This document shows, in pieces, positions 566 through 12,147 of a DNA stretch of 17,618 bases. Location of the stretch: the NCBI GenBank assembly GCA_021161465.1, contig JAGHAM010000028.1:1-17618 (forward strand). The letters are read 5' to 3'. A program made the translations under genes and the position numbers. A model generated the notes under the pieces. It saw only the letters and a list, made by a program, of their open reading frames with translations, was not told the origin of the DNA and made no database searches. Source of the stretch: Candidatus Iainarchaeum sp. (lineage in GTDB: Archaea > B1Sed10-29 > WALL01 > JAGHAM01). Each line of letters starts with the position of its first letter. The stretch's first letter is position 1.

Positions 566-1790
566 GTGATTGCAGTTGGTTTATTCAAGACCAGTATAAA
601 AATGCCTAGCACCGTATGTAACTGAAACAATTTCAATCAAAAGCAAGTTCACAGACAGCGTTGAGCTTGCCAAGAAATTCATTGCTATAAAGCCCACAAC
701 ACAGGTTTTGATTTCTGATGGCAGGTACTTGGAGCCGGAACTTATCCCTGGTAGTAGGGGCTTATCCCCAGTTATACTAGTGGGGCCCAACTTGTTGCCA
801 AATGAAGTTACTGAATTCTTGTTGAATAGTAATATCAAGACAGCAGTAGTTATTAGAAACCAGTTGTCTGTAGTTGGAGAAAGCATAAGGAAATCAACAA
901 ACAGGAACACTGTTGTTTTCATTAAATTTGGTATGGGCCATGCGGCAGGCACACAGATGGGCTTCAGTGCATTAACTATGTTCCCATTGCCAGCTTATGA
1001 AGCAAAGCTGTCTACTGAATCCGTATTCTACTCACCGAAGCATGGAAAGCTTTCGTTAGGTTCAAGAATGAGGGTAAGGTAGGTGTCTTCGAGTTCACAT
1101 CGCTTACAGTGAAATCAGGAGATGAGGTAGTTGCGAAGGCATCAGACAAAGAGCCACAATTCGTTGGTGGCGATGAAATGTACACAACCCCATTTGATAT
1201 AGGGATACCAAGCAAGAGGCTTGCAGAGAACTTAACTGTCATAGTGTATACTTCTTATGATGAGAGCCCAATGCTCTCGATAAGTACATAACAGCTACTG
1301 GCAAATATAGGCCACCTCTGGAGCTTCCTCTTAGCATTGAGGACGTGCAGGATGCCTCAAAGCTAGAAGTGGTTTCACTATCATATTACAAATTATCAAA
1401 AAAGTTTGGCATCAAAGTGAAGAACACTGGTAAAGTGACAGCTTTTGCTGATGCTGAACTTCCAGATGTCAGCATAGCTGGAATCACTAAAACCTTAAGA
1501 TACGAGGGAGTAAAGGAAGTAGAGCCAGGAAAGTAAGTAAAACTGCTCATACCTGCAGACCTGACGGAATTGGAGATTAAAGTATTAGACAAACAGAGAG
1601 TTAAAGTGTTCTACGGAGAGAATGAAAACCTCCTATCAATAAGATAGACCGTGAGATGAAAGTCAACATTGGGGAAGTAGGTGGGATAACTGGTTTGATA
1701 ACTGGCTCAGGTAGCTATGTTTTAGGTGCTGTTATTCTGGTCATAGCGATTGCTGCAATCTTCTTCTGGAAGGTTAAGAAAGAGGAGTAA
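566..1790 (+). pseudogene. Broken gene for a secreted, membrane-anchored surface protein (cell-wall-binding-repeat-like plus Ig/CARDB-like regions)
   Basis: One protein can be followed across three reading frames. Bases about 600-1045 give a segment resembling cell-wall-binding repeat 2 folds, including SPVILVGPNLLPNEV and IKTAVV. Bases about 1046-1275, in another frame, continue with AFVRFKNEGKVGVFEF. Bases about 1279-1644, in a third frame, give FGIKVKNTGKVTAFADAELP, typical of beta-sandwich CARDB/Ig-like domains. Bases about 1644-1790, back in the first frame, encode a C-terminal transmembrane anchor (YVLGAVILVIAIAAIFFW) with a Lys/Glu tail. Lesions are frameshifts near 1045, 1275 and 1640, an in-frame TAA at 1534-1536, and an unclear 5' end with TAA at 597-599. 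Intact genes elsewhere in the window argue against general sequencing error. The family calls are inferred from residue patterns only. Confidence 0.75.
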
Positions 1791-7929: not shown

Positions 7930-7971
7930 TATGGAGTATAAAATAACTGATAGCCCCGTGGTGTAGCGGCC

Positions 7972-7998
7972 AGTTCGCGCCTAGGTGCGAATCCGCAA
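7972..7998 (+). other. tRNA-Gln intron 1 (D-loop, 27 nt, BHB)
   Basis: The junctions form a textbook bulge-helix-bulge. Exon GCGG (7966-7969) pairs with intron CCGC (7993-7996) as the 4-bp central helix. Three-base bulges CCA (7970-7972) and AAA (7997-7999) flank it on opposite strands, and GTTCGC (7973-7978) pairs with GCGAAT (7987-7992) as the inner helix. Cutting after the second base of each bulge gives exactly this interval. Confidence 0.88.
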
Positions 7999-8037
7999 AA
8001 TCATACTGGCCTTTGGAGCCAGTGACAGCGGTTCGAA

Positions 8038-8204
8038 AAAGGGTTGCACCTCTTTACGCCTGCAGGGATTGCTCCGCAATCCTTCTGTATAAACAAACTG
8101 CCTTGTAAACAGGGTTGCTAAAGGAGTAGGATAAGAGAGGGCGGCATCTGATGCAGCTGCACAAACCTTTGTATTAACATCGGTGCACCCTTTTAGGGAG
8201 AAAC
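8038..8204 (+). other. tRNA-Gln intron 2 (T-loop 59/60, 167 nt)
   Basis: It interrupts TTCGAA-T in the T-loop. The ends pair with each other: AAAGGGTTGCACC (8038-8050) with GGTGCACCCTTT (8182-8193), with one bulged T. The T-stem forms the exon helix, T54-T55-C56 can pair with GAA (8200-8202), and ACT (8203-8205) serves as the 3' bulge, so the splice motif is a relaxed one. The interior contains a perfect 7-bp hairpin, GGATTGC-TCC-GCAATCC (8067-8083), and further pairing, but no open reading frame. No C/D-box pair is evident. Confidence 0.8.
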
Positions 8205-8218
8205 TCCGCTCGGGGCTA

Positions 8219-8713
8219 CTACTTTCTTGTGCGCTTCTTTATGGTAGTCCCATCCAGTTTTAATATAAGTAGGTAAATCCCAAGAACCAGCAAAACACTC
8301 AGCATCCAGAAGGTGTTATGCAAAACCTCAATCAGCTCACCACCCAAAGAAAGTGTTGCAGTGACCCTAAACACATTCCATAAAATCGCCAGCGGAAAGA
8401 ATGCCGTTATATAAGTTAGCTTTCGCTTCTCCTTTTTCATGGGTGTTGCATACAGCAACCCTGCAAATATCGAAAAAGAAACAACACCTGTGCAGGATGT
8501 TATTATAGTAAAGCTAGAGCCACCAAGAGTTATCGTCAGCCCAGAAAGAGAAACAGGCAAGCTTAACATGGCAAGTAGCATAAAAGAAGAAACAGCGACA
8601 AACTGCCGTAAAGGCAATAACAAACCAAAGAATAGGTCAACAGCGTGGAAGAACAAATAAAGTATTGAGAACACAAGAAAAAATTTACCAAGAAACTCCT
8701 TCATACTTACCAT
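8219..8713 (-). CDS. Archaeosortase/exosortase family protein
   Basis: Archaeosortases are membrane cysteine transpeptidases that cut C-terminal sorting signals of surface proteins and, in known cases such as haloarchaeal ArtA, lead to attachment to a prenyl lipid. The 164-residue protein is almost wholly hydrophobic, with about five membrane spans, and shows the catalytic set in order: Cys in SCTGV (C74), Arg in WNVFRV (R116) and His in VLHNTFW (H132). It is shorter than typical exosortases and close to small archaeal versions. I keep the ATG at 8713, which overlaps the carS stop, because GGGAG lies four bases upstream; ATG 8704 is the alternative. It is the last gene of a three-gene operon. 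No obvious substrate with a sorting tail is in the window. Confidence 0.85.
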   Translation of the reverse strand: MVSMKEFLGKFFLVFSILYLFFHAVDLFFGLLLPLRQFVAVSSFMLLAMLSLPVSLSGLTITLGGSSFTIITSCTGVVSFSIFAGLLYATPMKKEKRKLTYITAFFPLAILWNVFRVTATLSLGGELIEVLHNTFWMLSVLLVLGIYLLILKLDGTTIKKRTRK

Positions 8714-9234
8714 GGAACTCCCTTTAACTGTAATTTGAAAGCTACATAATTAGATGCTATGTGTATGAAAGGTGTCACAACTAAGATAGTTAGCACCATC
8801 AGCAAGCTAGGCAAGACCACAAAATCTTTGAATATGTAAACCATCAGGAGCGCGCCAAATATGAAATCCCATTGGTCAAGTAGTGGCGTTGCCTGACCGC
8901 GCTTTAAGTCAAACCTGCGCTTCACAAAAGACCCAAGGGAGTCACCAAACATAGCGCCAAAGGCCAATAACAAAGCTAATGATACACCCTCCATTGAGAA
9001 ACCCCCAAAATTGGGATACCCAAAAAGAGATTGGACAACGCCCGCCAAAAAGCCAAATAAAACTCCGGAAAAAAAACCTATTAGTGTCTTGCCTTTGCCA
9101 AGAAAGGGCCGCCCATCCAAAAACTTAACCCCATGGTCTAGTGGATATTTCCCATGTATCACCACTGCTGAGGCGTTTGCAACGTAAGCAGGCAGGATAT
9201 ACCATAAAGACCAGATTAAAAGGTCTAAAATCAT
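8707..9234 (-). CDS. carS: CDP-archaeol synthase CarS
   Basis: CarS transfers CMP from CTP to 2,3-bis-O-geranylgeranylglyceryl phosphate, making the activated precursor of archaeal phospholipids. The 175-residue membrane protein has the expected four or five spans and family motifs: YILPAYVANASAVV near the N-terminus, PLDHGVKFLDGRPFLGKGKT in the first cytoplasmic loop, GAMFGDSLGSFVKRRFDLKRG with the conserved Asp, and LLDQWDFIFGALL. It follows the unknown gene 9237-10166 by two bases and its stop overlaps the archaeosortase-like start, so all three are probably cotranscribed. Confidence 0.95.
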   Translation of the reverse strand: MILDLLIWSLWYILPAYVANASAVVIHGKYPLDHGVKFLDGRPFLGKGKTLIGFFSGVLFGFLAGVVQSLFGYPNFGGFSMEGVSLALLLAFGAMFGDSLGSFVKRRFDLKRGQATPLLDQWDFIFGALLMVYIFKDFVVLPSLLMVLTILVVTPFIHIASNYVAFKLQLKGVPW

Positions 9235-9236
9235 AA

Positions 9237-10166
9237 CTAGCTTTTTGTAGAAACTAGTTTAAATTCTTGGTGTGGCTTCCCTATTTTCCCAGTTTCATGC
9301 TTCCTGGCCTGCTGTTTCAGCCTAAGTTCTGGAGACACCTCTGGGTCCTCCTTGGTACCGAGAACTTCCAGAACATATTTCTTTGGCTTAAGGCCTAATT
9401 TCTCCATCAGAAGCCTTTCTCTAAGCGTTGTTTTTCTTATTTTTCCTTTAACCGTGCCATTAAAATGTATTGTTTTGTGGAAGGACGCATCCATCAGGGA
9501 GTCGTTGTGATGTTCCTTCATTTTATAGTGTTGTATTGCCTTCAAAAAACTTTTATGATTCTTTAATGAGCTCAAGTCTATAATCTCTGCTGGTAGCCCA
9601 CCCTCTCTCTTAAGTTTTTTGAAGAGTACTTTCAGGTCCTTAACCTTCTTGAGCCAGGGTAGTTTTATTTTGCCTTTCTCCTCCAGACCCCGCAGAAATT
9701 TTTTGGTGTAGTCCAGCTCACCATCCGCTGAGGGTATAATATCAGCTGACATTTTGTAGTTGTATCGCCTCAGGGCAATCAGGTTATCCAATGGCCGCCC
9801 ATCCTCTGCGTGGATTGCATACGGTGTGAAAACTGTCACTGGAACAGCCTCGCTTCCGGGGGAGGTTACTATTGGCTCGTTTGATAGGAAAAGTCTGGGC
9901 TTCCCAACCTTCTCCACCAGAGAACCTTTGTTTTCCAGAACGCCCTCTATTGACACTCTTATCTTATTCTTGTGCAGCCAGCTTAACTTCTTCTCGTTGT
10001 TAAGCTCACTTGGCATAAGCGAGATTTCCCTTATCCTCCCGCCGTTATCAGCAAAAATCTTCCCAATGCTTGGCAAATCAAAGCCTAGCCTACGAATGCC
10101 ACTAAATAAGTCACCTTTATGCTCTTTTGGTCTCCTTGGCCCTCTTGGTTTCTTCCTGGGTGGCAT
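9237..10166 (-). CDS. Uncharacterised 309-residue basic protein
   Basis: I do not recognise this protein. It starts with a Pro/Arg/Lys-rich tail (MPPRKKPRGPRRPKEHKGD), has no membrane segment, and is rich in Lys throughout. A region around residues 90-150 reads like a beta-rich domain (RLFLSNEPIV, VPVTVFTPYAIHAEDG), and the rest looks helical and charged. The basic tail suggests nucleic-acid or ribosome contact, but that is inference only. It is first in the operon with carS and the archaeosortase-like gene; its promoter gives a near-leaderless message. Codon use and length look like a real, undamaged gene. Confidence 0.8.
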   Translation of the reverse strand: MPPRKKPRGPRRPKEHKGDLFSGIRRLGFDLPSIGKIFADNGGRIREISLMPSELNNEKKLSWLHKNKIRVSIEGVLENKGSLVEKVGKPRLFLSNEPIVTSPGSEAVPVTVFTPYAIHAEDGRPLDNLIALRRYNYKMSADIIPSADGELDYTKKFLRGLEEKGKIKLPWLKKVKDLKVLFKKLKREGGLPAEIIDLSSLKNHKSFLKAIQHYKMKEHHNDSLMDASFHKTIHFNGTVKGKIRKTTLRERLLMEKLGLKPKKYVLEVLGTKEDPEVSPELRLKQQARKHETGKIGKPHQEFKLVSTKS

Positions 10167-10190
10167 GCTCTTGTTTTGTATCAGCTAATC

Positions 10191-10200
10191 TATTTAAATA
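10191..10200 (-). promoter_or_regulatory. TATA box of the unknown-carS-archaeosortase operon
   Basis: TATTTAAATA is centred about 29 bp upstream of the ATG at 10166, predicting transcription to begin within a few bases of the start codon. The interval up to 10277 is a divergent promoter region; CATTTAAGG near 10237-10245 may serve the (+) genes. Confidence 0.6.
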
Positions 10201-10276
10201 TTATACATTTAGTAACCTTACAGTAGTTACAAAATCATTTAAGGATAACCCGCACAAACTATTGTGAGGGGAAAAT

Positions 10277-10429
10277 ATGAAATTTAAAGACACGTGTCCG
10301 ATATGCTTTACAGAATCTGGCTATTCTGTTCCATTGAAGTACCTGGGGAATGGGATATACCAGTGCCAAAGGGATGAATCCCACAAATTCAAAAGAGATG
10401 AGAACGGCTTCTGGAAGAAAGTCATATGA
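10277..10429 (+). CDS. Small zinc-ribbon-like protein (50 aa)
   Basis: This 50-residue ORF starts at ATG 10277 after a strong GAGGGG site and ends at 10429, overlapping the dtdA start (ATGA). The N-terminal CPIC (residues 7-10) and a later C-x5-H (YQCQRDESH) could form a single zinc site, as in small archaeal zinc ribbons. The remainder is polar and Lys-rich. The tight overlap, good ribosome binding site and conserved-looking Cys spacing make it likely to be real. Its partner and role are unknown; coupling to dtdA hints at a translation or tRNA-related job. Confidence 0.7.
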   Translation: MKFKDTCPICFTESGYSVPLKYLGNGIYQCQRDESHKFKRDENGFWKKVI

Positions 10430-11214
10430 AGGCAATAGTATTCTCAAAGAAAGATACCGCAGGGAAGAACATCGCCAAAGCACTCATCCAAAAAGGCTTT
10501 CACGAAAACGGGAAAACCTTCAGTGGCTCCCCCATCTACGAGAACAAGGACCTGCTGCTTTTCTCCATTGAAGAAGAGGCTATATTTGGCGACAGCCTAA
10601 ACGATTTCATCATGGAATATAACCCAGAGCTGCTTGTTGTTGCCTCAAAACACAAGTCAGAAAGTGGCAGACCTACTTTAAGTGTGCACCCAACAGGCAA
10701 CTATCACGAAGCAAAGTACGGGGGAGAGCCAAAAACACTTCAAGCAACAAATGCAAACGCTATGAGAAATGTCTTTTTGTATCTACTGAACGAAACGCCA
10801 AAGGGATATGAATTATCCCTTGAGGCAACGCACCATGGGCCTACAGATATCAGAGTGCCCTTATTTTTTGCTGAGGTTGGGTCAACAGAAAAGCAATGGC
10901 AAGATTTAGAAGCTGCTGATTTCCTGGCTGAGGCCATACTAAATGGCCTAGAAAGTAAAGAGGAGGCAGAGGCAGTCATTGGTTTTGGTGGAGGGCATTA
11001 CTGCCCAACATTCACAAAAATGGAAAGTGAGGTAGCATTTGGTCACATCTGCCCAAAGTACTCAGTTGACTTTATAGATGTAGCCTTGGTGAAACAGATG
11101 GTAGAGCAAACAACCGATGGTGTTAAACATGCAATACTTGATGAGAAAGGTCTGAAAGGCCGCCACAAAACATTGATAAAGGATATCTTAGACGAAGTTG
11201 GTGTTGATTACTAA
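10426..11214 (+). CDS. dtdA: D-aminoacyl-tRNA deacylase DTD2 (GEK1 family)
   Basis: DTD2 removes D-amino acids wrongly loaded on tRNAs; it is found in archaea and plants in place of bacterial Dtd. Its 262 residues match the family length and signatures: SGRPTLSVHPTGNYHEAKYGGEP, LSLEATHHGPT, FAEVGSTEKQWQD and GFGGGHYCPTF, with the conserved histidines. The ATG at 10426 overlaps the stop of the zinc-ribbon gene. The TAA at 11212-11214 is followed without any break by the reading frame of the HD-domain protein, in the same frame. Confidence 0.96.
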   Translation: MKAIVFSKKDTAGKNIAKALIQKGFHENGKTFSGSPIYENKDLLLFSIEEEAIFGDSLNDFIMEYNPELLVVASKHKSESGRPTLSVHPTGNYHEAKYGGEPKTLQATNANAMRNVFLYLLNETPKGYELSLEATHHGPTDIRVPLFFAEVGSTEKQWQDLEAADFLAEAILNGLESKEEAEAVIGFGGGHYCPTFTKMESEVAFGHICPKYSVDFIDVALVKQMVEQTTDGVKHAILDEKGLKGRHKTLIKDILDEVGVDY

Positions 11215-11226
11215 GGGGGATTTTCC

Positions 11227-11793
11227 ATCAAAGCCATAATACAAGAGATTGAAAGTTCAGCTAAAAAACTTCTGGGAGAGGACTACCTTCATGGCTGGGA
11301 GCACACACAGAGGGTTAGAAGGTTAAGTGTCAGGATAGGCAAAGTTGAAGGAGCGAACCTAGAAGTGCTTGAGATTGCAGCCCTACTACATGACGTGGCG
11401 AGAGGCCATGAGAACTCAAACCTGCATCACGCAGTAAAAGGAGCTGAAATTGCAAGAGAACTGCTGACTGCCAGAGGCTACCATAAGGTTAATGAAGTTA
11501 TCCATTGCATTGAAGCCCATAGCTTCTCTGGTGGTGTGGAACCAAAAACGCTTGAGGCAAAAATAATCCAGGACGCCGACCGGCTAGATGCCATAGGCGC
11601 TATAGGGATTGCAAGATGTTTTGAATACCATGGGAAGTATGGGGGAGAGCCAATAGCACACTTTCAAGAAAAGCTCCTAAAGCTGAAAGACCTAATGCAC
11701 ACAGAAACCGCAAGAAGACTTGCTGAAGAAAGGCATAGGTTTATGGTAGAATTTCTAGACCGACTTGATAGAGAGGAAAAAGGGCTGTTATAG
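11227..11793 (+). CDS. HD-domain phosphohydrolase with no normal start codon
   Basis: The protein belongs to the HD superfamily of metal-dependent phosphohydrolases, resembling the small YpgQ/YedJ-type group likely to act on nucleotides. Visible metal ligands are H in HGWEHTQRV, HD in ALLHDVA, and D in IIQDADRLDAIGAIG, with the family end CFEYHGKYGGEP. The frame is open back to the dtdA TAA, yet no ATG, GTG or TTG lies before HGWEH; the first, GTG at 11365, would delete the first metal-binding His. A Shine-Dalgarno-like GGGGGA (11215-11220) stands six bases before ATC AAA GCC at 11227, which looks like a start ATG changed to ATC. I set the start there. Translation from ATC, readthrough of the TAA, or a sequence error are the options. 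Confidence 0.8.
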   Translation: MKAIIQEIESSAKKLLGEDYLHGWEHTQRVRRLSVRIGKVEGANLEVLEIAALLHDVARGHENSNLHHAVKGAEIARELLTARGYHKVNEVIHCIEAHSFSGGVEPKTLEAKIIQDADRLDAIGAIGIARCFEYHGKYGGEPIAHFQEKLLKLKDLMHTETARRLAEERHRFMVEFLDRLDREEKGLL

Positions 11794-11810
11794 TCTTACA
11801 CACATAACTC

Positions 11811-11819
11811 ATTATAAAC
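11811..11819 (+). promoter_or_regulatory. TATA box of tRNA-Leu
   Basis: ATTATAAAC is centred about 30 bases before the mature 5' end of tRNA-Leu, the expected archaeal position. Confidence 0.6.
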
Positions 11820-11864
11820 CAGAAAAACAAAAAATAAGAAAAGCGCAGGGGTTCCGGAGCGGTC

Positions 11865-11897
11865 AAAGGTCTTCTTGCATCAGCAGGAGAATCGCGC
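11865..11897 (+). other. tRNA-Leu intron 1 (D-arm, about 33 nt)
   Basis: A CAAA repeated at both junctions leaves the exact cut uncertain by a few bases, but every choice gives the same spliced tRNA. In the drawn version, exon GCGG (11859-11862) pairs with intron TCGC (11892-11895, one G-U), with bulges TCA and GCA. The interior forms a hairpin, TTCTTGC with GCAGGAG. The splice motif is therefore a relaxed BHB. Confidence 0.72.
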
Positions 11898-11947
11898 AAA
11901 CGGGCAAGGTTCAGGGCCTTGTGGCTTAGTGCCTCCGCGAGTTCAAA

Positions 11948-12112
11948 ATAAGGGGCACCTACGGTTCCCCCTTATAAGCCCCTTCCCTTAATGGGATGGA
12001 AAGCAGTAAGGGTGTTAGGCGTTCCTTATAAGCCCCCTCCCTTAATGGGATGGAAAGCAGTAAGGGTGTTAGGCGTTCCTTATAAGCCCCCTCCCTTAAG
12101 GGGGGTGGAGAC
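11948..12112 (+). other. tRNA-Leu intron 2 (T-loop 59/60, 165 nt)
   Basis: It interrupts TTCAAA-T at the same T-loop site as in tRNA-Gln. The sequence can fold as four consecutive hairpins: ATAAGGGG/CCCCTTAT (11948-11975), two copies of CCCTTA...TAAGGG closed by GCC/GGC, and a last C-rich/G-rich stem around TTAA near 12085-12108. ACT at 12111-12113 is the 3' bulge, and the T-stem is the exon helix. No open reading frame is contained. Confidence 0.78.
11964..12100 (+). repeat. 54-nt tandem repeat, about 2.5 copies, inside a tRNA intron
   Basis: CTTATAAGCC recurs at 11971, 12025 and 12079, exactly 54 bases apart. Copy 1 (11964-12020) has three extra C and one T/C change, copy 2 (12021-12074) is complete, and copy 3 (12075-12100) is cut off by the intron end. 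Each complete unit encodes one long hairpin. Confidence 0.9.
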
Positions 12113-12147
12113 TCTCGCCCCCTGCACCACAAGATTTTAATAGCAGG

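Follow-up and report, generated by a model that had tools for sequence, protein, structure and literature searches.

The question raised by this locus, a stretch of 17,618 nt from Candidatus Iainarchaeum sp. (hereafter the window), is why it appears to hold no intact tRNA gene: ARAGORN and Rfam find none in it, and tRNA-Gln(TTG) and tRNA-Leu(CAG) are both missed in their unspliced form. The initial annotation had proposed that each of these genes is interrupted by a D-arm and a T-loop intron, that the latter lies at 59/60 in both and that neither gene has an intron at 37/38, and all three points hold. Removal of 27 + 167 nt from tRNA-Gln and of 33 + 165 nt from tRNA-Leu (Table 1) restores complete cloverleafs, to which ARAGORN assigns the anticodons TTG and CAG, and the exons are identical to those of the orthologues in the nearest sampled relative (G001) at 69/73 and 76/84 positions, respectively. 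The T-loop junction of tRNA-Gln is fixed because the corresponding T loop in G001 (TTCGAAT) is uninterrupted; where As are repeated, the cut might lie one base earlier, at 58/59. No second intact tRNA-Gln(TTG) or tRNA-Leu(CAG) was seen among the tRNA-model matches in the genome, in line with the reading of the insertions as introns, and the Rfam catalytic intron models (group I and II) had no match in the window at gathering scores.

Table 1. Coordinates of the two interrupted tRNA genes and their parts in the window.
Feature	Position	Strand	Remarks
tRNA-Gln(TTG) gene, two introns	7952..8218	+	Cloverleaf once spliced; ARAGORN tRNA-Gln(ttg); 69/73 exon identity with G001 orthologue
tRNA-Gln D-arm intron, 27 nt	7973..7999	+	Ends uncertain by 1-2 nt; G001 orthologue interrupted likewise
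tRNA-Gln T-loop exon TTCGAA (54-59)	8032..8037	+	U54-C56, 5' strand of predicted splice helix
tRNA-Gln T-loop intron, 59/60, 167 nt, family B	8038..8204	+	Clusters with 12 other T-loop introns
tRNA-Leu(CAG) gene, two introns	11845..12126	+	Encoded CCA at 12127-12129
tRNA-Leu D-arm intron, 33 nt	11868..11900	+	Ends uncertain by 1-2 nt; no counterpart in G001 tRNA-Leu(CAG)
tRNA-Leu T-loop exon TTCAAA (54-59)	11942..11947	+	U54-A57, 5' strand of predicted splice helix
tRNA-Leu T-loop intron, 59/60, 165 nt, family A	11948..12112	+	Like introns of Lys(CTT), Leu(CAA) and Arg(TCG)
54-nt tandem repeat in tRNA-Leu intron, 2.5 copies, 97%	11970..12103	+	

With the standard Rfam tRNA model, the window's genome (976 kb in 40 contigs, 93% complete) yields 8 tRNAs; in 18 relatives from its class the model yields 13-44. 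A search that takes introns into account, combining pattern searches (the start of an intron after a T loop) with a custom finder that allows introns in the D, anticodon and T loops, turned up 37 complete tRNAs, 32 of which, spread over 16 contigs, carry a T-loop intron at the same site. Thirty-six of them score >31 and the next candidate 26.0, while the 37th, tRNA-Lys(CTT), scores low (22.9) because it has four introns, and was accepted since its exons match the tRNA-Lys(CTT) of G001 once these are removed. Only Met(CAT, L005), Tyr, Asn, Leu(TAA) and Pro(TGG) are without a T-loop intron, and three further such introns are found in tRNAs truncated by contig ends. As the pattern search favours T-loop introns but matches to the tRNA model were also included, 32/37 is a fair estimate rather than an exact one, and it refers to genes located by these searches in the stretches around their matches, so that tRNAs without a match may be absent from the census. 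For three complex genes the anticodon given by the finder was revised after visual inspection (L081:818, Lys(CTT); L083:2321, probably Pro(GGG); L001:1246, Ala(GGC)).

Several of these genes have peculiarities of their own. The four apparent introns of tRNA-Lys(CTT) (L081 ~705-950, G000:C30) lie in the D loop, at about 30/31, at 37/38 and at 59/60. The T loop of tRNA-Cys (L004:763-845) is odd, TGCGAC with ~12 extra nt, and its U55G change is seemingly compensated in the splice helix. A tRNA with the isoleucine anticodon TAT, which is unusual among archaea, carries a 321-nt T-loop intron (L048, match ~1501-1590, minus strand). Finally, contigs break inside the T-loop intron repeat of tRNA-Ser (L171, G000:C34 end; L172, C25 start; L173, C20 start), of which there are two versions with a different number of modules and different downstream sequence.

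Pairwise comparison of the T-loop introns at E<1e-5 gives two clusters, family A (n=14) and family B (n=13), which cover 27/32 introns. The window's tRNA-Leu intron belongs to family A and its tRNA-Gln intron to family B, and the two have no significant match to each other in this comparison. The idea that a family of introns has been spreading to one T-loop position is thus upheld genome-wide, where repeated families are found and each window intron, once aligned, has its place in one of them, but not for the pair on which it was built, which represents two separate families. The similar ends of these two introns (AAGGG..GCACC), originally taken as a sign of kinship, reflect a similar hairpin design only, because the introns fall in different families. 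Their near-equal length (167 and 165 nt), to which meaning had been attached, is accidental: lengths range from 13 to 321 nt in this genome (median 65, five introns >160 nt), and the tRNA-Leu intron has been lengthened by a tandem repeat.

Near-identical copies are found in different tRNAs. The introns of Gly(TCC) and Gly(GCC) are 100% identical over all 60 nt, those of Phe and Gly are identical over 50 nt, those of Lys(CTT) and Leu(CAA) are 98.9% identical over 90 nt, and the group formed by Lys(CTT), Leu(CAA), Arg(TCG) and the window's Leu(CAG) shows 95-99% identity over 88-96 nt (95-97% in the comparisons that involve the window intron). Family A introns of 108-119 nt contain one 54-nt module, of which Leu(CAG) carries an extra copy, and the composite family B introns (197-321 nt) are built from arrays of similar hairpin modules. 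Both families have an extra hairpin just 3' of the 5' splice site, AGAAGGG..CCCUUUCU in B and AUAAGG..CCUUAU in A; the bulges of the latter shift among members. In tRNA-His the module AAGAGGGGCTGCGCCCC is present at both 37/38 and 59/60, and a module like AAGAGGGGCTGCGCCCC occupies 37/38 in the tRNA-Asp of G001; copies therefore move not only from gene to gene but also from site to site. What these data show is copying between genes and sites, not the route by which it takes place. Further intron families exist beyond A and B. The anticodon-loop introns of Gln(CTG) and Arg(TCG) (L084 and L085, G000:C35) have a further repeat in common, CATCAGAACCTACGGTTCCGATAC, and several D-arm introns terminate in CGCAAA. 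Copies of the family B hairpin are also found directly 3' of, rather than inside, tRNA-Ala (L001, G000:C21:8155-8203) and tRNA-Ile (L007, G000:C16:28259-28277).

Copies that are repetitive, rich in hairpins, arranged in tandem in the long introns and in a few cases placed just 3' of tRNA genes could also be DNA-level mobile repeats, i.e. MITE-like hairpin elements that insert into tRNA genes by chance and for which splicing is secondary. We consider this improbable, since family B matches occur at the same T-loop site (except for the two copies 3' of tRNAs and one 14-base match that looks like chance), the ends of the introns obey splice-site rules and no target-site duplication is evident in the sequences inspected.

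The splice-site rules in question emerge from 37 introns (32 from the window's genome and five from G001), with the cut set at 59/60. A full 4-bp helix between U54-R57 and the 3' end of the intron, leaving a 3- or 4-nt 3' bulge, is found in 32/37 of them, while random placements within the same introns (5,000 trials) give on average 0.88 introns with a helix and at most five. In the window, the tRNA-Leu T-loop exon forms four pairs with TGGA at the 3' end of its intron (with a 4-nt 3' bulge), and the tRNA-Gln exon only three, with AGAA. Base 57 and its partner in the intron covary: A57 faces U in 27/29 introns and C in 0/29, and G57 faces C in 4/6 (Fisher p=0.0003, a value that overstates independence, the rows being related). 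Predicted folds contain the T stem together with the splice helix for 20/37 introns, compared with 10% of shuffled introns. The strict symmetric hBHBh' form is nevertheless departed from, since on the 5' side A58-A59^A is followed at once by a hairpin, after which there is often a second helix that abuts the 3' strand (e.g. AACCC..GGGUU in Leu(GAG) of G001). The full helix with a 3' bulge of exactly 3 nt is seen in only 18/37 introns, and two mini-introns of 13 and 16 nt, both in tRNA-Val, are without a clear helix. As judged from sequence and predicted folds, the splice signal would be a BHB of relaxed form, whose 5' bulge carries a hairpin.

It is thus highly probable that at least 32 tRNA genes have been invaded by protein-spliced BHB introns at T-loop position 59/60, mostly from two families that have spread by copying. 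In the mechanism that we propose, the 3' motif of the intron (UGGA, UGAA or UGAG, and CGAA in some introns whose exon has G57) would pair with U54-U55-C56-R57. The resulting central helix of 4 bp would stack on the T stem, flanked on the 5' side by A58-A59^ and on the 3' side by a bulge of 3 or 4 nt that ends in ^U60. Because the exon half of such a signal is nearly universal, one intron would fit, and could be excised from, any tRNA T loop, and two families could therefore cover nearly all isoacceptors. EndA would cut the introns and RtcB join the exons. Copying might proceed by reverse splicing or by recombination between the short conserved flanks in the T loop; the longer introns consist of arrays of hairpin modules.

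The genes for this machinery are present, including the one for RtcB. One EndA was found, the single PF01974 match (170 residues, contig C16), and it aligns end to end with the homotetrameric M. jannaschii enzyme (1a79) with no insert. By its sequence it is alpha4-like, without the loops linked to relaxed substrates, and no second endonuclease subunit or specificity loop of the (alpha-beta)2 or epsilon2 kind was found in this draft genome, from which a subunit may be missing. In ARMAN and crenarchaeal enzymes, EndA loops have been tied to relaxed substrates and intron-rich tRNAs (PMC12397907). The present genome does not fit this rule, unless the draft misses a subunit or the introns fold better than predicted.

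In G001, T-loop introns are present in 5/35 tRNAs, all of them short and B-like, one being in the syntenic tRNA-Leu(CAG) and none in tRNA-Gln. The D arm of the G001 tRNA-Gln is interrupted by an intron, at the position seen in the window, and since this gene has only this one, the D-arm intron of tRNA-Gln is the older of the two; its T-loop intron is most simply explained as a later gain in the window's lineage, even if loss in G001 is possible. The expansion thus looks recent, in that it largely post-dates the split from the nearest sampled relative. In genome G012 three tRNAs share an identical start of a T-loop intron, which belongs to a related hairpin, and the hairpin loop of family A, CACCTACGGTT, also occurs in G002, G012 and G013, in part immediately 3' of tRNA genes. 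On G012:C33 (L097 / L125), a tRNA-Leu is followed on its 3' side by decayed repeats of its own 3' half and pieces of intron, as after repeated insertion events.

That the window's genome is a draft of metagenome type in 40 contigs, three of which (C20, C25 and C34) break within such an intron, might suggest that the interrupted genes are decayed tRNA pseudogenes or an artefact of assembly. The 32 cases are, however, spread over 16 contigs, their exons are conserved with respect to G001, the same kind of intron is found in the independent assemblies G001 and G012, and uninterrupted additional copies of these isoacceptors did not turn up among the tRNA-model matches, all of which makes this explanation very improbable indeed. 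Spread of the invading introns seems to stay within the class: in a search of 297 relatives, convincing family B matches in or beside tRNA genes were confined to its members. Matches in G167 and G233 were rejected because both lie within long open frames rather than tRNA genes; the one in G233 (L292:1501-1529, AGAAGGGTTTCACCCCTTTCTAAACC) is very like the family B hairpin and lies inside an open frame of 587 residues in a distant archaeon. The family B hairpin had no match in IMG/VR, and the single match of the family A hairpin there, in GC-rich surroundings with no tRNA in sight, was treated as chance.

A further possibility, compatible with spread by copying, is that the introns are kept by selection because they disrupt the 3' half of the tRNA, an integrase attachment site. 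The idea of attachment-site protection is that of Randau and Soll, as cited in PMC3293823, and T-loop introns do divide the region that typically serves as attB. The pattern is, however, explained by the spread of repeats alone, and we regard a contribution of selection as unlikely, although less so than chance insertion of mobile repeats.

Expansions of this sort have been described in other archaea, and the comparison with Thermoproteales made in the initial annotation is apt as to the kind of event, which is known there, but not as to the host, which is a DPANN archaeon. Multiple and non-canonical tRNA introns, some at 59/60, are reported in Thermoproteales (Fujishima 2010; Sugahara 2008; PMC4090602, PMC4033280), where very similar introns occur in unrelated tRNAs at canonical and non-canonical sites (PMC4090602, PMC4033280). 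Similar introns across unrelated tRNAs, several introns per gene and use of the 59/60 site are common to both cases, whereas the DPANN host, the single dominant non-canonical site and the extra hairpin that the intron families carry at the 5' splice site set the present one apart. So does the single alpha4-type endonuclease, in contrast to the (alpha-beta)2 enzyme of intron-rich crenarchaeal species. The maximum in these reviews is three introns per tRNA (PMC4090602, PMC4033280). Nearly all tRNA genes are likewise interrupted, often non-canonically, in the Asgard Atabeyarchaeia and Freyarchaeia, with introns in 92-95% of tRNA genes and more than half of these having several, but the accessible text of that account describes neither repeat families nor a concentration in the T loop (PMC11291895). 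ARMAN (Micrarchaeum) is, as here, a DPANN archaeon with non-canonical tRNA introns, but it has a three-unit epsilon2 endonuclease with a special loop, whereas the EndA found here, with its 170 residues, is M. jannaschii-like and without the loop (PMC12397907). The open-access literature yielded no description of intron families directed at the T loop in the majority of a DPANN genome's tRNAs. Large-scale tRNA-intron expansion is thus known in kind; its form here, modular structured introns aimed at the T loop in a DPANN archaeon, is new.

A bolder reading can be put forward tentatively, and with somewhat less than even confidence: that this is a self-spreading intron element specialized for the universal T loop, with a 3' complement to UUCR and a 5' hairpin of its own, which would stack up to 321 nt, reach nearly every tRNA gene, move between 37/38 and 59/60 and be processed by an alpha4-type endonuclease thought to accept strict BHB only. 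The case bears on how archaeal tRNA introns multiply: in an expansion that looks recent, with many near-identical copies and one target site, the donor, the recipient and the junction are directly legible in the sequence. The genome challenges the link of non-canonical introns to broad-specificity endonucleases, and it illustrates that a standard tRNA model may recover no more than 8 tRNAs from a genome that is 93% complete.
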